Assembly: GCA_003134505.1 (NCBI GenBank)
Contig: PLBK01000025.1
Coordinates: 13,180-45,483, forward strand
Direction of reading: 5' to 3'
Length of the DNA: 32,304 nucleotides
Source of the DNA: Actinomycetota bacterium
GTDB lineage: Bacteria > Actinomycetota > Thermoleophilia > Gaiellales > Gaiellaceae
The translations under genes were made by a program, and so were the position numbers. Below are positions 13,028-23,280 of this stretch, piece after piece (the first letter of the stretch is position 1; every line of letters starts with the position of its first letter). A model generated the notes under the pieces. It saw only the letters and a program-made list of their open reading frames with translations. It ran no database searches and was not told the DNA's origin.

Positions 13028-13954
13028 CTACGCCGGCTCGGAGCCGACCCTCTGCGGCGGTACCGCAGGAAGCTGGCCGTTCCGGCCGCGCTGGATGCGG
13101 ACCCAGCTGCGGCGGCCGATGTAGATCAGGATCGCCGCCATGCCGACGGCGAGCAGGACGACGATGGCGACGCCCGCGCCCGGGACGTCGACCAGCTTCA
13201 GGCCGGAGAGACCGAGCACGAGCGCGAGCACGAAACGGAGCGGCCGGTCGGGCACCTGGAGCGACAGGCGACCACCGACGAGCACGCCCGGAAGCGAGCC
13301 GAGCAACAGCCAGCCGACCGTGCTCATGTCGACGTTCCCGGCGATGAAGTGCCCGATGCCCGCCACGTAGAGCAGCGCGGCCGCATGGAAGATGTCGGTG
13401 CCGACCACCTTGTGGGCGCGCAGCGGGAAGACCACGAGCAGCGTCAGCCCGAAGAAGACGCCGCTGCCGACCGACGTCAGGCCGACGACGAAGCCGCCGA
13501 ACAGGCCGATCAGGACAGCGGCGAGTCGGTCGCGGCGCTCGAGCGTGAAGTCGACGTCGCCGACGGGCTTCGAGGTGATGAAGTTCTTCGCCACCAGCCC
13601 GACGCAGCCGAACAGGAGCGCGCCGCCGAGGACGCGGCCCATCGTCGACTCGATGCCCTTGCCGTAGTGGTGCTGGAGCCAGTCGGCGAGCCAGACGCCG
13701 AGCAGCGACATCGGCGCCGAGCCGAGCAGCATCCAGCCGGCGAGCTGCGCCCGCACGTTGCCCATCCGCCGGTGCTGCACGGCGCCGAGCGTCTTGAAGA
13801 TCGCGCCGTGGGCGATGTCGGTGCCGATCGCGACCGTCGGGTTGAAGCCGAACACGATGACGAGGATCGGCGTCATCAGCGAGCCGCCGCCCATGCCCGT
13901 CATCCCGACGAGCGTCCCGATCAGCGCGCCGGTGAGCGCCAGCTCCCACCACAT
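13028..13954 (-). CDS. TauE/SafE family sulfite/sulfonate exporter-like permease
   Basis: The 308-residue protein has about eight hydrophobic helices. It opens with G-A-L-I-G-T-L-V-G-M-T-G-M-G-G-G-S-L-M-T-P, the Gly-rich first repeat of the TauE/SafE (DUF81) family. The second half repeats the pattern as G-L-F-G-G-F-V-V-G-L-T-S-V-G-S-G. A charged cytoplasmic loop with D-V-D-F-T-L-E-R-R-D-R-L separates the halves. Family members move sulfite, sulfonates or other small organic anions across the membrane. The gene is last in the sulfur operon, 12 bases after sat, and has no ribosome binding site of its own, so it probably depends on coupled translation. In this setting, export of surplus sulfite or of a sulfonate product, or uptake of sulfate, are all possible; direction and substrate are inference. 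Confidence 0.85.
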   Translation of the reverse strand: MWWELALTGALIGTLVGMTGMGGGSLMTPILVIVFGFNPTVAIGTDIAHGAIFKTLGAVQHRRMGNVRAQLAGWMLLGSAPMSLLGVWLADWLQHHYGKGIESTMGRVLGGALLFGCVGLVAKNFITSKPVGDVDFTLERRDRLAAVLIGLFGGFVVGLTSVGSGVFFGLTLLVVFPLRAHKVVGTDIFHAAALLYVAGIGHFIAGNVDMSTVGWLLLGSLPGVLVGGRLSLQVPDRPLRFVLALVLGLSGLKLVDVPGAGVAIVVLLAVGMAAILIYIGRRSWVRIQRGRNGQLPAVPPQRVGSEPA

Positions 13955-13966
13955 GGCGCTAGCGGA

Positions 13967-15097
13967 TCACGACCTGTACGCCTCGATGAGCGCGGCCGCG
14001 ACCTCGGGCCGGGAGAACTCGACCGGCGGCAGCTCACCCGCCTCGAGCATCTCACGGACCTTCGTCCCCGACAGGAACACGTGCTGCTCCGCCGGGTGCG
14101 GGCAGGTCTTGGCCGAGGCCATCGCCCCGCAGGTGGTGCACCAGAACGTGTGCTCGAAGAACATCGGCTCGATGTCGAGCTCGTGCGGTGAGAAGTCGTC
14201 GAAGATCAGCTGCGCGTCGTAGGAGCCGTAGTACGAGCCGACGCCGGCGTGGTCGCGGCCGACGATGAAGTGCGAGCAGCCGTAGTTCTTGCGGCAGATC
14301 GCGTGCCAGATCGCCTCGCGCGGGCCCGCGTAGCGCATCGCGGCCGGGAACGCCGCCACCAGCACGCGGTCGGCCGGGTAATAGCCGTCGACGAGCAACC
14401 GGTAGCACTCGACGCGGGTCGCGACCGGCACGTCGTCCGACTTCGTCTCGCCGACGAGCGGGTGGATGAGCAGCCCGTCGACCGTCTCGAGCGCGACCTT
14501 GGTCAGGTACTCGTGTGCGCGGTGGATCGGGTTCCGCGTCTGGAAGCCGACCACCCGCCGCCAGCCGCGCTCGGCAAACGTGCGCCGCGTGTCGACCGGG
14601 TCGAGCGCCAGCTCCGGGAACGACGGCTCCGCCCGCTCGAAGACGGTGACGCGCCCGGCCAGGTAGAGCGGCTTCTGCCCGTACAGCCGGGCCACACCGG
14701 GATGCTCGGCGTCGGTCGTGCGGAAGCACTGCTCCGCCTCGTGCTGCTTGTCGTACTCGAAGCTTTCGCGGACGTCCAGCACCGCCAGCGGCCGGCCAGT
14801 CTCGTCGGCGAGCGCGACGCGGTCTCCCCGCGGCGCCTCGTCGACGGCCAGGCACACAGGCAGCGCCCACGGCAGGCCGCTTCCGAGCCGCATCTCCTCG
14901 ACCACGTGCTCGTAGTCCTCGCGGCTCATGAAGCCTTCGAGCGGAGACAGCGCGCCCGAGGCGAGCATGTCCAGATCGGACAGCTCCCGCGACGTGAGCG
15001 TGATCTGCTCCAGCGCCTCGACGTCGTCCGGCCGCTCGCCGGTGCGGTCGACGAGCTCGCCGCCGTGCGGGCGGATCAGGTGATCGGTCGTCGTCAC
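13967..15097 (-). CDS. sat: Sulfate adenylyltransferase (ATP sulfurylase)
   Basis: This 376-residue enzyme makes adenosine 5'-phosphosulfate (APS) from ATP and sulfate in the cytoplasm. It is the homo-oligomeric Sat type rather than CysDN. The nucleotide-binding motif Q-T-R-N-P-I-H-R-A-H-E is at residues 186-196 and G-R-D-H-A-G at 280-285, both intact. A Cys cluster C-T-T-C-x8-C-P-H (Cys320, Cys323, Cys332) matches the zinc site of bacterial and archaeal Sat. Length is normal for a protein without a fused kinase domain. The start is GTG at 15097. It follows cysC by 73 bases holding a strong hairpin and precedes the TauE-like exporter gene by 12 bases. With the adjacent cysC and cysH it completes the activation and first reduction of sulfate. 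Confidence 0.95.
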   Translation of the reverse strand: MTTTDHLIRPHGGELVDRTGERPDDVEALEQITLTSRELSDLDMLASGALSPLEGFMSREDYEHVVEEMRLGSGLPWALPVCLAVDEAPRGDRVALADETGRPLAVLDVRESFEYDKQHEAEQCFRTTDAEHPGVARLYGQKPLYLAGRVTVFERAEPSFPELALDPVDTRRTFAERGWRRVVGFQTRNPIHRAHEYLTKVALETVDGLLIHPLVGETKSDDVPVATRVECYRLLVDGYYPADRVLVAAFPAAMRYAGPREAIWHAICRKNYGCSHFIVGRDHAGVGSYYGSYDAQLIFDDFSPHELDIEPMFFEHTFWCTTCGAMASAKTCPHPAEQHVFLSGTKVREMLEAGELPPVEFSRPEVAAALIEAYRS

Positions 15098-15170: not shown

Positions 15171-15770
15171 TCATGCGTTCACCGCGGAGCGGACGAGCCC
15201 GAGCTCCTCGAGCTTGGCGACGACGAGCTGCGCGCTCTCCTCCGGCTCGTGCGCCTCCGTGTCGAGGACGAGCTCCGGGTCGATGGGCGGCTCGTACGGG
15301 TCGTCGACGCCGGTGAAGCCCTTGATCTCGCCGCGGAACGCCTTCTCGTACAGGCCCTTCACGTCGCGGCGGGCACATTCCTCGACCGAAGCGGCGATGT
15401 ACACCTCGACGAACGCACCCCACTCCTCGACCATCGCGCGCGCCTTCTGCCGCGTCTCCTCGTACGGCGAGATCGCGGCGGCGATCACTGCGCCGCCCTG
15501 CCGCGTCAGCCGGGAGGCGACCCATCCGATCCGCTCGATGTTCGTATCGCGGTCCTCCTTCGAGAAGCCGAGGCCCTTCGAGAGGCGCGTGCGGACGGTG
15601 TCGCCGTCCAGATACTCGACGACGAGGCCGCGGCGGTCGAGCTCGGGCCCGACGAGGTGCGCGATCGTCGTCTTGCCGGCGCCGGAGAGGCCGGTGAACC
15701 AGAGCGTGAAGCCGCCCTCGCGGCGCCGCTCCGATTCCGGGTGCTCGTGCGCGTAGATGTGCTCGGTCAT
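15171..15770 (-). CDS. cysC: Adenylylsulfate kinase (APS kinase)
   Basis: This 199-residue kinase phosphorylates APS to PAPS. The P-loop G-L-S-G-A-G-K-T-T is at residues 27-35. The family signatures D-G-D-T-V-R-T-R-L, G-L-G-F-S-K-E-D-R-D-T-N-I-E-R-I-G and I-S-P-Y follow, then the lid segment K-G-L-Y-E-K-A and G-V-D-D-P-Y-E-P-P. All match functional CysC. The ATG overlaps the cysH stop as ATGA, so translation is coupled; this fixes the start although the open frame extends further upstream. Because the adjacent CysH looks like an APS reductase rather than a PAPS reductase, the PAPS made here is not obviously needed for reduction. It could feed a sulfotransferase or provide an APS drain. No sulfotransferase is seen in the window. 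Confidence 0.94.
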   Translation of the reverse strand: MTEHIYAHEHPESERRREGGFTLWFTGLSGAGKTTIAHLVGPELDRRGLVVEYLDGDTVRTRLSKGLGFSKEDRDTNIERIGWVASRLTRQGGAVIAAAISPYEETRQKARAMVEEWGAFVEVYIAASVEECARRDVKGLYEKAFRGEIKGFTGVDDPYEPPIDPELVLDTEAHEPEESAQLVVAKLEELGLVRSAVNA

Positions 15771-16456
15771 TCGTTCCTTTCGATGTGGATGCCACACTCG
15801 AGCTTGTCGGAGCCCGCCCAGCGGCCGGCTCGCTCTTCCTCGTTCGGCGCGACCGGCCGGGTGCAGGGAATGCACCCGATCGAGCGGTAGCCGACGTCGT
15901 GCAGCGGGTTGTAGGGGATCTCGTTGACGTTGATGTAGGCCCAGACGCGCTTCTCGTCCCAGTCGGCGAGCGGGTGCAGCTTCCAGACGCCGTAGCTCTC
16001 CGACCACTCGAGCTTGGGCGTGTCCACGCGGCTCGGCGACTGGTCGCGGCGGATGCCCGAGATCCAGGCGCCGTAGGGCTCGAGCGCCTTCAGGAGCGGC
16101 TCGACCTTGCGGATGTGGCAGCAGCGGTCGGGGTCGCGCTCCCACAGGTTCGGCCCCTCGTCGCGGTGCTGCTCGGCGACGGTTGCGATCCGCGGGCGGA
16201 GCAGGTTGAGGCCGTAGCGCTCGACCAGCCGGTCCCGGGTCTCGTAGCTCTCGCGGAAGAACAGGTGCGTGTCGAGCTCGATCACGTCGATGCCGAGGCC
16301 GAGCTCGGAGACCATGTGCACGAGCACGGACGACTGCTTCTGCCACGAGCAGGTCAGGCAGAGCTTCTCCCCGAACTCGCCGGCGGCCCAGCGGATCACA
16401 TCCTCCGCGGACATGGCCTCGAGGTCAGGCTGCAGGCTCAGGCTCGGCGTCGCCAA
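15767..16456 (-). CDS. cysH: Assimilatory APS reductase (CysH family, Fe-S type)
   Basis: The 229-residue protein reduces activated sulfate to sulfite using thioredoxin-like donors. It has C-C at residues 112-113 and C-I-P-C at 195-198, the four-cysteine [4Fe-4S] signature of APS reductases. The catalytic Cys221 lies in L-E-C-G-I-H. Enzymes that use PAPS usually lack the four cluster cysteines, so APS is the predicted substrate. Substrate-binding segments S-G-I-R-R-D-Q-S and H-P-L-A-D-W are present. The start is taken as TTG at 16456, because a full AAGGAGGT lies five bases upstream inside comA; ATG at 16414 is a poorer alternative. With the TTG start the gene overlaps comA by 32 bases. It overlaps cysC by ATGA. 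Confidence 0.92.
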   Translation of the reverse strand: MATPSLSLQPDLEAMSAEDVIRWAAGEFGEKLCLTCSWQKQSSVLVHMVSELGLGIDVIELDTHLFFRESYETRDRLVERYGLNLLRPRIATVAEQHRDEGPNLWERDPDRCCHIRKVEPLLKALEPYGAWISGIRRDQSPSRVDTPKLEWSESYGVWKLHPLADWDEKRVWAYINVNEIPYNPLHDVGYRSIGCIPCTRPVAPNEEERAGRWAGSDKLECGIHIERNE

Positions 16457-17192
16457 GCAGAACCTCCTTCAACGTGTCGCCGCGCAGGCCGAGCCTGAGC
16501 GTCTCGAGCGGGATGACCTCGTCGGGCGGGATGTTGCCGAGGTTGACCGCGGGGCCGAAGTGCTTGACGAACCAGGCCTGCGAGCTCTTCGTCGGCGCCT
16601 CCCAGATCAGGTCGTGGACGTCGATCGAGTGCGCGATCTCGTCGACGAGCCCGGTGCGCATCTCGCCGGAGGGCCGGAAGATCCCGGCGGTGCCGCTCTC
16701 GCGCGACTCCGTGATCACCTTCCAGGCGCCGGCCGCGAGCTCCTCCGTGATCCATTCGACCCACTCGTAGGGCGCGAAGACGACCTCCGAGTCCTTCGAG
16801 CCGACCTCGGAGAGCACGGTGAAGTCGCGTGCGAAGTCCGCGATCAGCTCCAACTTCCGCTCGCGCGGGATCTCGACGGTGCCGTCGGAGATCTCGACGT
16901 GGCGGATCCCGAGGGAGCCGAGCCAGCGCTTGTAGTCGTCGAGCCGGTCGCGCGCGTACACGACCTCGAAGAACGTCCCGCCGATCACGACCGGCTTGCC
17001 GCGGAGCACGTCGAGCTTGCGGCGCAGGTTGCCGGTCACCCAGGCGGTGCCCCAGCCGAGCTTGACGATGTCGATGTACTCGCCGCTCGTCTCGAGGACG
17101 TCCTCCCACGCGCGCGGGCCGAGGCCCTTGTCGAGCACGTGGGTCAGGCCGCCGTCGCGCTTGATGCCGAGATCGAGGTCAAAGTCGCTCAA
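16425..17192 (-). CDS. comA: Phosphosulfolactate synthase
   Basis: This 255-residue protein has the length and motifs of the ComA family, TIM-barrel enzymes that add sulfite to phosphoenolpyruvate to give phosphosulfolactate. That is the first step to coenzyme M in methanogens and to sulfolactate in some bacteria. Motifs in order are I-V-K-L-G-W-G-T, P-V-V-I-G-G-T-F-F-E, H-V-E-I-S-D-G-T, L-S-E-V-G-S-K-D, I-T-E-S-R-E-S-G and F-G-P-A-V-N-L-G-N-I. These include the acidic and basic residues thought to bind magnesium and PEP. The TTG start at 17192 is preceded by GGAGGGG at good spacing and overlaps the fumarase beta gene by 14 bases. Its position directly before cysH suggests that the sulfite made by CysH is its substrate. 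No comB phosphatase or comC dehydrogenase is in the window. Confidence 0.9.
   Translation of the reverse strand: MSDFDLDLGIKRDGGLTHVLDKGLGPRAWEDVLETSGEYIDIVKLGWGTAWVTGNLRRKLDVLRGKPVVIGGTFFEVVYARDRLDDYKRWLGSLGIRHVEISDGTVEIPRERKLELIADFARDFTVLSEVGSKDSEVVFAPYEWVEWITEELAAGAWKVITESRESGTAGIFRPSGEMRTGLVDEIAHSIDVHDLIWEAPTKSSQAWFVKHFGPAVNLGNIPPDEVIPLETLRLGLRGDTLKEVLLGDAEPEPAA
16462..16469 (-). promoter_or_regulatory. Full-consensus Shine-Dalgarno for cysH inside comA
   Basis: On the minus strand the sequence AAGGAGGT is complementary to the 16S rRNA tail and ends five bases before the TTG at 16456. It is embedded in the comA codons for K-E-V-L-L. It decides the cysH start and suggests strong internal initiation. 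Confidence 0.8.
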
Positions 17193-17778
17193 GGATCCCC
17201 TCCAGTCGCCGGTTGGCCTCCGCCTGGACGTCGTGGTAGAGCGAGTTGCCGTGCGCGTCGATGCCCACCGTCAGAGGGCCGAAGTCCTTGACGCGGAACT
17301 TCCACAGGCACTCGGGCATCAGCTCCTCCCAGGCGACCTCCTCGATCTCCTCGATCTGGGTCGTCTCGAGCGCCGCCGCCCCGCCGACGATGGCGAAGTA
17401 GACCATGCCCAGGCGGCGCATCGGCTCGATCGCCTCGTCCGGGAAGCCGCCCTTGCCGCAGATCGCGCGCACGCCGTAGCGCTCGCCGAGCGGCTCGGTG
17501 AACCGCACCATGCGCGCCGAGGTGGTCGTGCCGATGCAGACCTTCTCGTAGCGGCCTCTGCCCTCGGCATCGGTGCCAAGCTTGCGCACGCCGGGCGCGG
17601 TGTGCAGCAGGAAGGCGCCGCGCAGGTCCATCGGCGGCTCCACGCCCTGGTCGAAGATGCGGATCTGCGTCCGGTCGCGGATGCCGATGACGTGCCCGTC
17701 GACGGTCACCTCGTCGCCCGCACGCAGCTCGCGGATCGCCTCCTCGGTGGTCGGAAACGTCAGTCTGTGCACGGCCAC
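17179..17778 (-). CDS. Class I fumarase/tartrate dehydratase, beta subunit
   Basis: The 199-residue protein matches the C-terminal (beta) half of Fe-S class I hydro-lyases. It has the segment G-D-E-V-T-V-D-G-H-V-I-G-I-R-D-R-T near the start, the conserved I-G-T-T-T-S-A-R-M at about 90-98, I-C-G-K-G-G-F at about 115-121, and D-F-G-P-L-T-V-G-I-D-A-H-G near the end. In the family, the beta subunit supplies substrate-binding residues to the alpha subunit's [4Fe-4S] cluster, and together they add or remove water across a fumarate-like double bond. The GTG start is two bases after the alpha stop, and the 3' end overlaps comA by 14 bases. It may be an ordinary fumarase, but the operon context allows a sulfonated substrate (see findings). 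Confidence 0.9.
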   Translation of the reverse strand: MAVHRLTFPTTEEAIRELRAGDEVTVDGHVIGIRDRTQIRIFDQGVEPPMDLRGAFLLHTAPGVRKLGTDAEGRGRYEKVCIGTTTSARMVRFTEPLGERYGVRAICGKGGFPDEAIEPMRRLGMVYFAIVGGAAALETTQIEEIEEVAWEELMPECLWKFRVKDFGPLTVGIDAHGNSLYHDVQAEANRRLEGILERL

Positions 17779-17780
17779 GC

Positions 17781-18680
17781 CTAGGCCTCCCGGTCATAGT
17801 CGACGTCGCCGTTCGAGCCGATGTGCGCCGAGGCGCGGCGCGCGGCCCAGCACTGGTAGTTGACGGCGACGGGGTTCAGGGTCATGTGCGTGTCCGCGTG
17901 CTCGATGTGGCAGTTGAGGACGGTGACGTCGCCGCCGAGCCCCATCGGGCCGATCCCGGTCTCATTCAGCAGTTGGAAGAGCTCCTCCTCGAGCTTCGCG
18001 ACGTGCGGATCGGCGTTGCGCGTGCCGATAGGCCTTGCGATTGCCTCCTTGGCCAGGTACATGGCGTAGTCGGCCGAGCCGCCGATCCCGACGCCGACGA
18101 TCCCGGGCGGGCACGGCTTGCCGCCGGCGCCGACGATCGACTCGAGCACGAACTGCTTGATGCCCTTCACCCCGTCGGCGGGGACGCACATCTTCAGGAA
18201 GCTCATGTTCTCCGAGCCGGAGCCCTTGGGCACGCACTTGACGTCGAGGCCGTCCCAGTCGGGGATGAACTCCCAGTGGACGATCGGCAGCCGGTAGCCC
18301 GTGTTCGGCCCGGTGTTCTCGCGGGTGAGCGTGTGCACCGAGTTCGAGCGCAGCGGGTGCTCGATCGTCGCGCGCTCGGTGCCGGCCTTCAGCGCCTGGT
18401 AGATACGCACCGGGTGGAGCGGGAACCGCTCGCCGACGCGGCACGTGTAGACCGCGATCCCCGTGTCCTGGCAGACGAGGTTGCCTCCGTCGTCGGCGAC
18501 CTGCACGTTCTTCAGGATCGTGTTGAGGACGCGCTGCCCCGGGATGCTCGTCTCCCGCGCCGCGGCGTCTGCGAGCGCGTCCCGGAGGTCCTGCGGAATG
18601 TCCTTGAGCGCCCAGACGTAGAGGTACGCGGCCGCGTCCTCGACGACGCCGTAGAGATCGGTGTCGACCGCCGTGGTCAT
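17781..18680 (-). CDS. Class I fumarase/tartrate dehydratase, alpha subunit
   Basis: From the ATG at 18680 the protein has 299 residues, the normal length for the alpha subunit of two-subunit Fe-S hydro-lyases. The three cluster cysteines are in place: C-Q-D-T-G (Cys70), G-K-P-C-P-P-G-I-V-G-V-G-I-G-G, and V-N-Y-Q-C-W-A-A-R-R-A near the C-terminus. H-P-L-R-S-N-S-V and the R-E-N-T-G-P-N-T substrate segments are also present. The start codon overlaps the stop of the flavoprotein gene as ATGA, which rules out the 18-residue upstream extension. Malate/fumarate or tartrate interconversion is the known chemistry; the exact substrate cannot be read here. Its place between a fumarate-reductase-like flavoprotein and comA is unusual for a housekeeping fumarase. 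Confidence 0.92.
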   Translation of the reverse strand: MTTAVDTDLYGVVEDAAAYLYVWALKDIPQDLRDALADAAARETSIPGQRVLNTILKNVQVADDGGNLVCQDTGIAVYTCRVGERFPLHPVRIYQALKAGTERATIEHPLRSNSVHTLTRENTGPNTGYRLPIVHWEFIPDWDGLDVKCVPKGSGSENMSFLKMCVPADGVKGIKQFVLESIVGAGGKPCPPGIVGVGIGGSADYAMYLAKEAIARPIGTRNADPHVAKLEEELFQLLNETGIGPMGLGGDVTVLNCHIEHADTHMTLNPVAVNYQCWAARRASAHIGSNGDVDYDREA

Positions 18681-19870
18681 GCCCTTGCCCCCGCCGCCGC
18701 GGCACGGCCCGCACGACGGCCGAACACGCAGCACTCGAGCAGCGAGTTCCCCATCATCCGGTTCCGGCCGTGCGTTCCGCCCGCGATCTCGCCGCAGGCG
18801 TAGAGGCCCTCGACCGTCGACTCGGCGTCGGTGTCGATCACGAGCCCTCCGTTCTGGTAGTGCAGCACCGGGTAGGTGAGAATCGGCTCGCCGAGCGGGT
18901 CGACGCCGGCGGCCCGGTAGCGACGGAGCATGTAGGGAAGCGAGATCTCGGCGTCGGCCGGGGCGATCCGGGTCGTGTCCAGGTAGACCGCAGGCCGCCC
19001 GTCCGGCGTCGTCACGCCCTTCCCTTTCTCGACCTCGTCGAAGATCGCCTGCGAGACCGCGTCGCGCGGCCCCAGCGAGTCGGTGAACTCCTCGCCGTCG
19101 GCGTTCACGAGCACGGCGCCGTACGCCCGCGTCGTCTCGGGGATCGAGTAGCCCTGGGTGTTCGGGGGCCAGGCGCCGCCGTTCGGGTGGTACTGGAGCG
19201 CGTCGAGGTCACGCCCTTCGGCGCCCAGATCGAGTGCGATCTGCGTCACCTCTCCGGTCGCGCCGGGGTGGTTCGTCGACAGCTCGCCGCGCTCCTCGGC
19301 CTCCCGGTAGCACCGGCCGCCGGCCGCGAGGACGACCGTGGCCGCCTCGAGCGTCTCATCGCCGCAGCGTGCGCGCCAGCCGCTCCCGGTCTGGTCCAGC
19401 CCGAGCAAGGGTGACTTCGGAAACGTCTCGACGGTCGCCGCCTCGACGGCGTCACGAAGCGCGGTCGTGATCGCATGCCCAGTCCGGTCGCCGACCTGCA
19501 GCAGCCGCTTGCGGGAGGCGCCGCCGCAGCGCGCGAGCCGGTAGCCGCCATTGGAGCGCGTGAACTCGACGCCAAGCTCCTCGAGCCAGTGGATCGCGTC
19601 CGGCGCCTCGCCGGTCAGCACCTCGACGAGGCGGCGGTCGGCCGTCTCGTGGGAGGAGCGCCAGACGTCCTCGGCGTGCAGCTCGGGCGAGTCGTCGTCC
19701 GCGAACGCGGCCTGGATCCCGCCCTGCGCCTTCGCCGAGTTGCAGGACTGGAGCGTTCCCTTCGTCACGATCGCGACGCTCGCGCCGGCGCGGTCCGCGG
19801 ACAGCGCGGCTGCGAGCCCGGAGGCGCCGCTGCCGACCACGAGCACGTCGAATGACGACCGTCCGGACAC
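18677..19870 (-). CDS. Short SdhA/FrdA/NadB-like FAD oxidoreductase
   Basis: This 397-residue flavoprotein has the FAD-binding V-G-S-G-A-S-G-L-A-A-A near residue 12 and N-S-A-K-A-Q-G-G-I, the His/Ser-type FAD-contact signature of succinate dehydrogenase, fumarate reductase and L-aspartate oxidase. Dicarboxylate-binding positions appear conserved: His in Q-Y-H-P-N-G, Arg in I-P-E-T-T-R-A-Y-G-A, His in L-H-Y-Q-N-G-G and Arg in H-G-R-N-R-M-M-G-N-S-L-L-E. The usual H-P-T is H-P-N here. The protein ends soon after the FAD domain and lacks the C-terminal helical domain, so it is well below the length usual for SdhA or NadB. No iron-sulfur subunit or membrane anchor is adjacent. GTG 19870 follows TACAAT by eight bases. 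It is the first gene of the sulfur operon. L-aspartate oxidase is an alternative, but nadA and nadC are absent. Confidence 0.82.
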   Translation of the reverse strand: MSGRSSFDVLVVGSGASGLAAALSADRAGASVAIVTKGTLQSCNSAKAQGGIQAAFADDDSPELHAEDVWRSSHETADRRLVEVLTGEAPDAIHWLEELGVEFTRSNGGYRLARCGGASRKRLLQVGDRTGHAITTALRDAVEAATVETFPKSPLLGLDQTGSGWRARCGDETLEAATVVLAAGGRCYREAEERGELSTNHPGATGEVTQIALDLGAEGRDLDALQYHPNGGAWPPNTQGYSIPETTRAYGAVLVNADGEEFTDSLGPRDAVSQAIFDEVEKGKGVTTPDGRPAVYLDTTRIAPADAEISLPYMLRRYRAAGVDPLGEPILTYPVLHYQNGGLVIDTDAESTVEGLYACGEIAGGTHGRNRMMGNSLLECCVFGRRAGRAAAAGARA

Positions 19871-21458: not shown

Positions 21459-22379
21459 TTACCAGACCGAGCGGAGCAGCTCTTCGATCTCCGCCGGGCT
21501 CGCGGGCCGCGGGTTCGCCTTCGCGCCGCCGCGCACAGACGTCGCCGCCGCGACCTCAGCGAGCTCGTCCTCCGGGACGCCCAGGTCGCGAAGGCGCGTG
21601 AATCCACAAAGCCGGGCGAGCTCCTCGACGCGCTCGATCCCGAGCGGCTCGGTCGCGCCGTTGAAGCGCATCGCAGCGGGCAGGCAGATCGCGTTCAGCG
21701 CTCCGTGCGGCAGGCCGTAGCGTCCGCCGAGCGCCTGGGCCATCGCGTGGCCGAGATAGAGACCGTGGTCGCGGAGAGCGATGCCGGCGTGCATGGCTCC
21801 TTCGAGCAGGTTCCGTCGTGCGTCTTCGTCCCGGCCGTCCTCGAGCACGGGTGACAGCCACCTGTCGATCAGCTCCGCGCCTTGCCGCGCGTCCGGAGAG
21901 TCCGAGACGTACAGCGCCTCGACACAGTGTGCGAGCGCGTTCATCGCCGTGCCGCCCGATTCGTCGCGGGGCAGGTCGAGCGTCAGCCGCGGCTCGTAGA
22001 CGATCGCGGCGGTGTGCGCGCCGGTTCCGCCACCCTTCACCCGCCTGGCCTCGTCCCGGATGCCGAAGTAGGGCGTCCACTCGGCTCCCGCGTAGGTGGT
22101 CGGCACGGCGACGAGCGGGAGGCCGGTCGACGCCGAGACCGCCTTGGCCGTGTCGATCGCGCTGCCGCCGCCGAGGCCGACGATGGCATCGGCGCGCGTG
22201 TCCCCGGCTCTGGCGGTCGCAGCCTCGACGCCCGCCAGCTCGGCGTGCGAGCGCGCGCCGTGGAAGCGCTCCGCGATCGGAACGTCGAGCGCGCGCCAGC
22301 GCTCGGTCGAGACCAGCAGCGGTCGCAAGTACGCCTCGAGCACGCCGGGCAGCCCGTCGAGGCCCCAGCGGACGATCAC
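21459..22379 (-). CDS. Maleylacetate reductase-like iron-dependent alcohol dehydrogenase
   Basis: The 306-residue protein belongs to the iron-containing alcohol dehydrogenase superfamily and looks closest to maleylacetate reductases, which reduce maleylacetate to 3-oxoadipate at the end of chlorocatechol or hydroxyquinol degradation. The nucleotide site is I-V-G-L-G-G-G-S-A-I-D-T-A-K-A. Then come V-P-T-T-Y-A-G-A-E-W-T-P-Y-F and the metal-site helices A-M-N-A-L-A-H-C-V-E-A-L-Y and L-G-H-A-M-A-Q-A-L-G-G-R-Y-G-L-P-H-G. The N-terminus is shorter than in most members but begins with the first strand (VIVRWGLDGL). The GTG at 22379 overlaps the LysR gene's stop as GTGA. No ring-cleavage dioxygenase is nearby, so the physiological substrate is open. 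Confidence 0.82.
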   Translation of the reverse strand: MIVRWGLDGLPGVLEAYLRPLLVSTERWRALDVPIAERFHGARSHAELAGVEAATARAGDTRADAIVGLGGGSAIDTAKAVSASTGLPLVAVPTTYAGAEWTPYFGIRDEARRVKGGGTGAHTAAIVYEPRLTLDLPRDESGGTAMNALAHCVEALYVSDSPDARQGAELIDRWLSPVLEDGRDEDARRNLLEGAMHAGIALRDHGLYLGHAMAQALGGRYGLPHGALNAICLPAAMRFNGATEPLGIERVEELARLCGFTRLRDLGVPEDELAEVAAATSVRGGAKANPRPASPAEIEELLRSVW

Positions 22380-23272
22380 TTCGGCAGACGGTCGCGCGCG
22401 AACGTGAGGAACGCCTCCGCGATCCGGCTGGGCGCGCGCCCGACCGAGCGGACGAGCGAGATCTCGCGCACCGCCTCGAGCCCCTCGACCCGCGCGACGG
22501 CCAGCGCTCCCGCAGCGAGCTCGGACTCGACGGCCGACCGTGAGATGAACGTCACGCCGTAGCCGGCGACGACGGCGCTCTTCACGGACTCCTGCAGCCC
22601 GAGCTCGAGGTGGACGTCGAAGTCGCGGAGCCTCGTCCCGGCGGCGCGGAGCTCCTCCTCGATCACCGCCCGGACGCCCGCGCCGGCCTGCATCATGATC
22701 AGCGGCTCGCCGTGAAGCTCGTCGAGCGTCAGCGTTCTCCCGGCGAAGCGATGCCTCGGCGGGCAGACGAGCACGACCTCGTCCCGGAAGAAGGTCTCGA
22801 ACGACACCGAGCGCTGCCGTCGTGCCGCGCCGACGACACCGAGCTCGAGCTCGCGCCCCGCGACCAGCTCGACGATGCGCTGGGTGTCGTGAACGGAGAG
22901 CGCGACGGTGAGCTCGGGGTTGCGCTGCTGGAACTCGCAGAGGAGCAGCGTGACGACGTTGGCGCCCGGGCCGGTCGAGGCGCCGATCTCGAGCCGCCCG
23001 CGCAGAGCACCCTCGTCCTCGGCTGCGACGACCTCGAGCAATTGCTTTTCGAGCGCGAGCAAGCGCTGTGCCCCCCGGTACAGCCGGAGACCCGCCTCGG
23101 TCGGGACGACTCGTCGGCCGGACCGGTCGAGCAGCTGCTGCCCGACACGCTTCTCGAGCGCGCGCACCTGCTGGCTGACCGCCGGCTGCGTGACCCCGAG
23201 GCGGGCCGCCGCCTGCGAGAAGCTCTCGCGCTCGACGACCGCGCAGAAGGCTGCAAGCTGCCGAGTGTCCAT
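22376..23272 (-). CDS. LysR family transcriptional regulator
   Basis: From the ATG at 23272 the protein has 298 residues, normal for LysR. The N-terminal winged helix-turn-helix reads R-Q-L-A-A-F-C-A-V-V-E-R-E-S-F-S-Q-A-A and then L-G-V-T-Q-P-A-V-S-Q-Q-V-R-A-L-E. A linker helix and a periplasmic-binding-like effector domain follow, with G-V-T-F-I-S-R near the end. Two ATGs are possible (23278 and 23272). The second is preferred because CATAAT lies eight bases before it and only two before the first. It overlaps the maleylacetate-reductase-like gene on the same strand, so the pair is co-transcribed. It probably controls that enzyme in response to a small acid, as is common for LysR proteins in aromatic degradation; this is inference. 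Confidence 0.93.
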   Translation of the reverse strand: MDTRQLAAFCAVVERESFSQAAARLGVTQPAVSQQVRALEKRVGQQLLDRSGRRVVPTEAGLRLYRGAQRLLALEKQLLEVVAAEDEGALRGRLEIGASTGPGANVVTLLLCEFQQRNPELTVALSVHDTQRIVELVAGRELELGVVGAARRQRSVSFETFFRDEVVLVCPPRHRFAGRTLTLDELHGEPLIMMQAGAGVRAVIEEELRAAGTRLRDFDVHLELGLQESVKSAVVAGYGVTFISRSAVESELAAGALAVARVEGLEAVREISLVRSVGRAPSRIAEAFLTFARDRLPK

Positions 23273-23280
23273 AAGCATCC

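Follow-up and report, generated by a model that had tools for sequence, protein, structure and literature searches.

A partnerless flavoprotein encoded beside ComA in Thermoleophilia: a candidate sulfoacrylate reductase of a putative sulfonate biosynthesis operon

This work concerns a 32,304-nucleotide stretch of DNA (referred to below as the window) from an Actinomycetota soil bacterium of the family Gaiellaceae, class Thermoleophilia (assembly GCA_003134505.1, contig PLBK01000025.1, positions 13,180 to 45,483 of the forward strand), and specifically an open reading frame in it (18677..19870, minus strand, GTG start codon) for a 397-amino-acid (aa) flavoprotein of the FAD_binding_2 family. 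Based on profile matches, alignments and phylogenetic trees, we propose that this protein is a sulfoacrylate reductase, which would catalyse the terminal step of a sulfonate biosynthesis operon; the probability of this assignment, derived from sequence comparisons, is estimated at slightly above one half (about 0.55). The broader claim that the flavoprotein acts on a C3 sulfonate derived from the ComA reaction is probably correct. The initial annotation of this gene had suggested a changed substrate such as a sulfonate. This suggestion is now well supported, mostly by the operon containing ComA, CysH, CysC and Sat, by the co-occurrence with ComA and by the link between the fumarase-like genes and sulfolactate, whereas the reasons then given for it (an HPN motif and the missing C-terminal domain) are weak; the sulfur operon and the PETTR change described below were both absent from that annotation.

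The genes of this region are read on the minus strand in the order LysR, an Fe-containing alcohol dehydrogenase (Fe-ADH) family gene, UppP, the flavoprotein, FumA-like, FumB-like, ComA, CysH, CysC, Sat and a TauE-family permease. The flavoprotein gene is followed by those for a class I fumarase-like alpha subunit (17781..18680; PF05681), the proposed alpha subunit of a sulfolactate dehydratase, and a beta subunit (17179..17778; PF05683), a ComA-type phosphosulfolactate synthase (16425..17192), a sulfite-making CysH-type adenylylsulfate/phosphoadenylylsulfate reductase (15767..16456), a 199-aa frame (15171..15770) which, due to its GLSGAGKTT motif, we take to be a CysC-like adenylylsulfate kinase, and the ATP sulfurylase Sat (13967..15097; NF003166, 525 bits), with the start codons of ComA and CysH being uncertain. 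The ATG of the alpha subunit overlaps the stop codon of the flavoprotein gene (ATGA), and these two genes, like CysH and CysC, are coupled by such an ATGA overlap. The ComA protein matches PF02679 with 272.9 bits (cut-off 25.2), and its alignment with 1u83 and 1qwg extends over the length of the protein. In 72 close loci showing 67-86% identity, nearly all of them from actinobacterial metagenome-assembled genomes (some assigned to Thermoleophilia, Gaiellaceae or Gaiella, with one Acidobacteriota and one Burkholderiales bin), and where each gene was counted only if the sequence extends far enough past the flavoprotein, fumA is retained in 58/61, fumB in 57/59 and comA in 49/50 loci. Retention of the other genes is 35/45 for cysH (copies of 42-46% identity counted in), 32/43 for cysC, 24/42 for sat and 32/36 for the TauE gene, and in some loci CysD/CysN-like genes, named by eye, replace Sat. 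Two loci (L079, L103) carry a sulfotransferase-like gene (cluster c35), also named by eye, a few kilobases (kb) beyond ComA, with no CysH or Sat called nearby.

The association between the flavoprotein and ComA was examined in a class sample of 149 related genomes, mostly drafts, which belong to families denoted here as f1 (the window's own) to f8. The flavoprotein is present in 53 of these genomes (at least 348 bits, the next match being at 211 bits) and ComA in 76; both proteins are found in 53, ComA alone in 23 and neither in 73 genomes, and the flavoprotein is never found alone. Given the relatedness of these genomes, a Fisher test on this table does not yield a fair probability. In 50 of the 53 genomes the two genes are on one contig, 30-2461 bases apart, and in the other three (G075, G078, G091) they are split over contigs. 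By family, the flavoprotein, ComA and FumA are found in 24, 27 and 24 of the 30 f1 genomes, in 2, 2 and 0 of the 3 f2 genomes, in 27, 27 and 0 of the 32 f3 genomes, in 0, 12 and 13 of the 15 f4 genomes, and in 0, 8 and 0 of the 18 f8 genomes. In a phylum sample of 396 genomes, searched with a threshold of 1e-62, there were 14 flavoprotein matches, 10 of which come from the window's class. Of the four others, one (G399, 258 bits) falls in the nearest related group described below, and the remaining three score 212-218 bits, with the one that was placed in trees (G173) grouping with Sdh/Frd proteins. A separate observation from family f8 is that in three stretches (L143, L147, L149) ComA adjoins an ATP-grasp ligase-like gene (cluster x6, named by eye), which hints at a coupling of sulfolactate to something.

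The flavoprotein itself matches PF00890 (FAD_binding_2) over residues 8-377 with 233.1 bits (cut-off 20.4), the match covering the profile from 1 to 414 of 414. The features read earlier from the sequence alone hold up on closer examination, viz. a motif for binding flavin adenine dinucleotide (FAD; GSGASG, residues 13-18), four His/Arg dicarboxylate positions (H228, R269, H337 and R371), an end directly after the FAD domain, HPN in place of HPT (residues 228-230), and no Fe-S subunit or membrane anchor among the adjacent genes, which are a UppP-like gene upstream and the fumarase-like genes downstream. In alignments, H228, R248, R269, H337 and R371 correspond to H244, R263, R290, H351 and R386 of E. 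coli NadB, and together with E245 they complete the catalytic His/Arg/Glu set of SdhA/FrdA, in which E245, R248 and R269 occupy what we take to be the Arg/Glu/Arg proton relay positions. The 20 NadB/SdhA-like paralogues that were fetched (445-579 aa) exceed the protein in length by 48-182 residues. However, a truncated or broken gene was considered and ruled out: among 85 distinct sequences longer than 380 aa, the window's included, 83 reach a stop codon at 390-420 aa and two run off their contig, and because of this conserved length the protein is neither an artefact nor a fragment. Nine shorter sequences were excluded from this set, seven lying at a contig end and two (L101, L102) having the match in two pieces. 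Soluble fumarate reductases also have no C-terminal domain, and due to this its lack is by itself no sign of a new substrate.

Membership of the flavoprotein in the NadB or SdhA/FrdA families was rejected based on cut-offs, residues and trees. Its best NCBIfam score is for nadB (TIGR00551, about 261 bits against a cut-off of 452.75), and it also falls short of the cut-offs for sdhA/frdA (TIGR01812, 229.5 against 567.3) and flavocytochrome c (TIGR01813, 191.8 against 285.45). In a 35-row tree, from which L171 was left out, the 12 flavoprotein rows form one clade (support 100/100), which is separate from those of NadB (11 rows, 100/99) and Sdh/Frd (8 rows, 86/86). The initial annotation had named a firm position inside the L-aspartate oxidases as one half of what would refute it, and the protein lies outside them. 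The nearest group consists of four FAD proteins (L191, L195, L196, L197; joint support 100/100), of which L191 and L195 are encoded beside Hdr-type genes and L196 beside 4Fe-4S and NuoF-like genes, L197 being unannotated. The structural comparison with NadB and FrdA suggested earlier was carried out with an AlphaFold2 model of modest quality based on 39 sequences (mean predicted local distance difference test score, pLDDT, 73.3; predicted template modelling score 0.78), in which residues 340-397 are unreliable (pLDDT <50). Foldseek searches with this model place FrdA and SdhA on top and NadB at rank 23, a ranking that is informative concerning the superfamily only.

A number of residue changes distinguish the flavoprotein from its relatives. 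In all 85 rows the sequence PETTR[ASG]YG is found where NadB, SdhA and FrdA rows read [TS]E..RG[EA]G; Pro takes the place of the dicarboxylate-site Thr/Ser in 85/85 flavoprotein rows, whereas 11/11 comparison rows have Thr or Ser. At this position, three SdhA-like proteins linked to SuyAB-type genes (from the Gaiella genome G085, Methylobacterium and Rhodococcus) have Glu, and the occurrence of two different changes at one site would fit a non-carboxylate group, presumably a sulfonate, being bound there. Glu121 of E. coli NadB, which we take to be linked to the substrate amino group, aligns with Cys115 of the flavoprotein, and the surrounding RCGG is present in 78/85 rows. An Asn aligns with the FrdA His that is presumably the site of covalent FAD attachment. 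The HGRNR sequence (A to R beside R371) is present in 66/85 rows and in 0/18 f3 rows. HPN was tried as a key residue motif and rejected: within the window's own group it occurs in 64/65 rows, the exception being L093 with HPT, and it is found in none of the 20 rows from families f2 and f3, and as these families retain HPT while having both the flavoprotein and ComA, HPN is a weak reason to postulate a new substrate.

The beta subunit of the fumarase-like pair also carries distinctive changes. It scores 145.7 bits against the fumarate hydratase equivalog NF004708 (cut-off 269), and in place of the canonical ARDxAH, GP and GPTTS it has GIRDxTQI (GIRDRTQ in the window), HTAP and GTTTS. A comparison of 71 operon-type with 10 canonical rows shows the fixed sites T37/Q38 for A/H in RDxAH, A61 for G, T84 for P in GPTTS, and E138/T139. 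Both operon-type and canonical FumAB are present in three f4 genomes (G002, G014, G056). In a tree based on 23 alpha plus beta rows (without L042 and L079, for which no FumA/FumB pair was available), six operon-type and four SuyAB-linked rows form one clade (100/100). All 10 rows of this clade, and 0/13 others, have GIRDx[TS][QL]I, HTAP and GTTTS in the beta subunit.

The members of this clade outside the operon provide the link to sulfolactate genes. They occur in M. radiotolerans, M. oryzae, G085 and R. jostii, where SuyAB-type pairs and succinate dehydrogenase (SDH)-like genes lie beside or near them. In G085, a second operon-type FumAB copy is accompanied by SdhA-like and Sdh_cyt proteins and by a UxaA-type enzyme in two parts, whose large subunit is 64% identical to a Paracoccus seriniphilus protein. 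The P. seriniphilus gene has as neighbours genes for a histidinol-dehydrogenase-like protein, a hydroxyacid dehydrogenase, an Ldh-family enzyme and a sulfate exporter family protein, a set which we take to be the known sulfolactate/2,3-dihydroxypropane-1-sulfonate genes HpsN, SlcC, ComC and SuyAB. NCBIfam gave for this UxaA-type (SuyAB-like) enzyme a sub-cut-off galactarate dehydratase match only. The whole G085 region (L182:2723-9951), with SdhA-like, Sdh_cyt, SuyAB-like pair, operon-type FumAB, AcnX and aldehyde dehydrogenase genes, is a candidate cluster for 3-sulfopropionate/sulfolactate degradation, and in the assembly its gene for the large SuyB-like protein is divided between two frames. 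In two M. radiotolerans records and M. oryzae, SDH-like subunits, FumAB, a TauE-family gene and the UxaA pair are within one stretch, and in one of the M. radiotolerans records NAD(P)-dependent and Ldh-family oxidoreductases come next; on R. jostii pRHL1, FumAB occurs with SdhA/B-like genes, and SuyAB-, SlcC- and ComC-like genes are some 15-24 kb away. A cluster on a plasmid of Pseudomonas sp. MPC6 (L206: SDH-like subunits, an FAD protein, FumAB, a CoA-acylating semialdehyde dehydrogenase and a sulfate exporter family gene) was considered as a further sulfo-fumarase and not accepted, as both the canonical and the operon motifs are absent from its beta subunit.

Gene content and order, co-occurrence with ComA, the clades, the altered residues and the sulfolactate-gene link are what the data show; from these we infer the following reactions, their direction and the end product. 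Sat, CysC and CysH would convert sulfate to sulfite, which ComA would join with phosphoenolpyruvate to give phosphosulfolactate. A phosphatase, for which a ComB-family gene (PF04029) on contig C20 of the window's own genome (G000) is a candidate, would release sulfolactate, an analogue of malate, from which the fumarase-like alpha/beta pair would remove water to form sulfoacrylate, the fumarate analogue. The flavoprotein would then transfer a hydride from reduced FAD and a proton via the E245/R248/R269 relay, reducing sulfoacrylate to 3-sulfopropionate, the analogue of succinate; at one end of its site, H337 and R371 would bind the carboxylate in the manner of fumarate reductase, and the other end, with the Thr/Ser to Pro change, would accommodate the sulfonate. 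As for the phosphatase, ComB as a mark of the operon was discarded, for it is not specific (it is present in G009, which has no ComA match). In 8 of 10 f4 stretches (L133, L135-L140, L142), ComA has near it a gene resembling histidine phosphatases (cluster x1; the one that was scanned matches PF00300), which is possibly a stand-in for ComB, and in G121 (L148:7399-8933) a distant ComA is directly followed by a 2-phosphosulfolactate phosphatase (PF04029), a classic ComA-ComB pair. In family f3, sulfoacrylate could be supplied by a lyase with 34-40% identity to Xaut_5053, which we presume to be XcbC1; this lead from sequence searches is based on its presence in 26/27 flavoprotein-positive f3 genomes, and it is also found in 1/3 f2 and 4/30 f1 genomes and not in G000.

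In these mostly draft genomes, the NIR_SIR Pfam family, which counts nitrite reductases too, was not found in 19/27 f1, 12/12 f4, 2/2 f2, 2/27 f3 and 0/8 f8 ComA-positive genomes, and its absence from most of those in f1 and all in f4 indicates that sulfite made by CysH would need another sink. Irrespective of ComA, no NIR_SIR match was seen in 15/15 f4 and 21/30 f1 genomes, which bears on sulfur reduction for cysteine.

Several observations weigh against a sulfoacrylate reductase pathway as outlined here. No redox partner was found for the flavoprotein; ComA falls below the archaeal equivalog TIGR03849 (232.6 against 280 bits); and the alpha subunit passes the fumarate hydratase equivalog NF004885 (303.2 against 276 bits). 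The class I fumarase match is absent in the flavoprotein- and ComA-containing genomes of f3 (27) and f2 (2), the XcbC1-like lyase route for f3 is weakened by the distance of this gene from the operon, often with a different contig for each, as well as by its presence in 2/5 of the f3 genomes that have no flavoprotein and in one f7 genome (at 31%), and the ComB-family gene was not found in the three f3 genomes tested. The flavoprotein is missing from all 15 f4 genomes, 12 of which have ComA, and from three ComA-containing f1 genomes (G114 and G117 with ComA alone; G123 with ComA and FumB, its FumA match being in two parts). Among the 10 f4 stretches that were retrieved (L133-L142), L133 and L134 have operon-type FumAB next to ComA and L135 has it about 7 kb away, L141 has FumAB with no ComA in the stretch, and L136-L140 and L142 have ComA without FumAB; L183 is operon-type FumAB from a genome without a ComA match. 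Further, G069 has the flavoprotein, FumB and ComA and no PF05681 (FumA) match in the genome, and on contig C44 of G000 a NIR_SIR protein is encoded along with another CysH. The G069 locus and one named record (L127 / L095) are alike in having the flavoprotein and FumB-like beta subunit beside ComA with no FumA-like alpha subunit in the locus.

The strongest alternative, which we regard as unlikely, is that the flavoprotein forms sulfopyruvate by oxidising C2 of sulfolactate (or cysteate), thus replacing ComC, with FumAB serving another branch. The reaction would resemble the oxidation of aspartate by NadB and the slow oxidation of malate by succinate dehydrogenase. This reading is in accordance with the f2 and f3 genomes in which the flavoprotein and ComA are present and a class I fumarase match is not, as well as with the best NCBIfam score being for NadB, a C-N oxidising relative. 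However, the flavoprotein has Cys in place of NadB Glu121 and is outside the NadB clade, most f3 genomes have a candidate sulfoacrylate source in the XcbC1-like lyase, and the conserved position of FumAB between the flavoprotein and ComA would be left unexplained. Still less probable is that the protein reduces fumarate, as ordinary soluble fumarate reductases do, or some other unsaturated acid, with FumAB being the cell's fumarase and the sulfur genes being only indirectly related neighbours. The retention of the catalytic residues, the score of the alpha subunit above the fumarate hydratase cut-off, FrdA and SdhA heading the structure search, and the lack of a FumaraseC_C match in 5/27 ComA-positive f1 genomes are in its favour. 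It is opposed by the accompaniment of the flavoprotein by ComA in 53/53 genomes, by a FumaraseC_C match in the other 22 of these f1 genomes (one below the cut-off; the domain occurs in aspartases too), by the three f4 genomes holding both FumAB types, and by the SuyAB-linked enzymes within the operon FumAB clade. An L-aspartate oxidase that has lost its C-terminal domain is highly improbable, as, despite nadB being the top-scoring family, its cut-off is not reached, the protein is outside the NadB clade, Glu121 is changed, and a separate NadB candidate (424 bits and so itself just below the cut-off, against 262 for the flavoprotein) is present on contig C27 of the same genome.

The remaining genes of the region are peripheral to this argument. 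The LysR regulator (22376..23278, minus strand), of which a homologue is found upstream in 41/43 related loci, possibly regulates the operon, and the Fe-ADH family gene just downstream of it (21459-22430, minus strand) is also present in some related loci (cluster c10). The TauE/SafE family permease (13028..13954, minus strand; PF01925, 141.7 bits) may be a sulfate importer or a sulfonate/sulfite exporter.

If the preferred reading, i.e. reduction of sulfoacrylate by the flavoprotein, is extended to the class, Thermoleophilia would convert sulfate and phosphoenolpyruvate to 3-sulfopropionate by a biosynthetic route that copies the malate-fumarate-succinate segment with sulfonates, using a class I "sulfo-fumarase" dedicated to it and a "sulfoacrylate reductase" that has no partner; as many of them show no NIR_SIR-type sulfite reductase, most of the CysH-made sulfite would flow into the sulfonate, making them a source of C3 sulfonate in soil not recognised so far. 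This wider scenario is put forward tentatively, its chances being rather less than even. Sulfolactate and 3-sulfopropionate are among the sulfonates on which sulfur cycling draws, and the scenario, if true, would provide an origin for 3-sulfopropionate from sulfate, two new enzyme activities and a sequence signature splitting sulfonate from carboxylate fumarases. It would also correct the annotation of such genes, which records name fumarate hydratase or FAD-binding protein, and the operon-type FumAB clade would mark candidate 3-sulfopropionate degraders. In passages of earlier work, 3-sulfopropionate is treated as a breakdown product or intermediate (PMC11489063, PMC12890257), TauE is named as its probable exporter (PMC11489063), and a remark resting on a thesis describes its breakdown in Roseovarius via sulfoacrylate and sulfolactate (PMC11489063); further sources are PMC11507031 and PMC12068725. 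Searches of openly licensed PMC literature for the residue numbers gave no result, and among the matches listed there for the pathway no title pointed to a description of the present system, which may be in print elsewhere.

In comparison with known systems, the proposed pathway shares its ComA start with the bacterial coenzyme M pathway (Xanthobacter pXAUT01: ComA and two fumarate lyases), which passes through sulfoacrylate, made by a fumarate lyase family enzyme, and then on to coenzyme M; however, the window has a class I Fe-S type enzyme and the flavoprotein instead of the fumarate lyase step. With FrdA/SdhA the flavoprotein shares the FAD_binding_2 fold, the substrate His/Arg residues and the Arg/Glu/Arg relay positions, but it is without the C-terminal domain, Fe-S subunit and anchor, has the Thr/Ser to Pro change and Asn at the covalent-FAD His, and misses the cut-offs. 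Like NadB, it is a stand-alone flavoprotein with no His at the covalent-FAD position; it differs from NadB in the Glu121 to Cys change, in having no C-terminal domain and in forming a clade of its own. The tree-nearest Hdr- or 4Fe-4S/NuoF-linked FAD proteins (Ilyobacter, Pseudoroseomonas, Paraburkholderia, G399) have LHYQNGG and HG[RK]NRLMGN in common with it, whereas they are 535-540 aa long with an N-terminal extension (measured for L191, L195 and L196), retain T/S-E and are encoded beside electron-transfer genes. Lastly, the putative 3-sulfopropionate degradation clusters (SDH-like genes, FumAB and a SuyAB-type pair) share with the operon the FumAB clade and motifs and, in Methylobacterium, a nearby TauE-family permease, but they presumably work in the reverse direction, with SDH-like genes in place of the 397-aa flavoprotein and with no ComA or CysH listed in their stretches.

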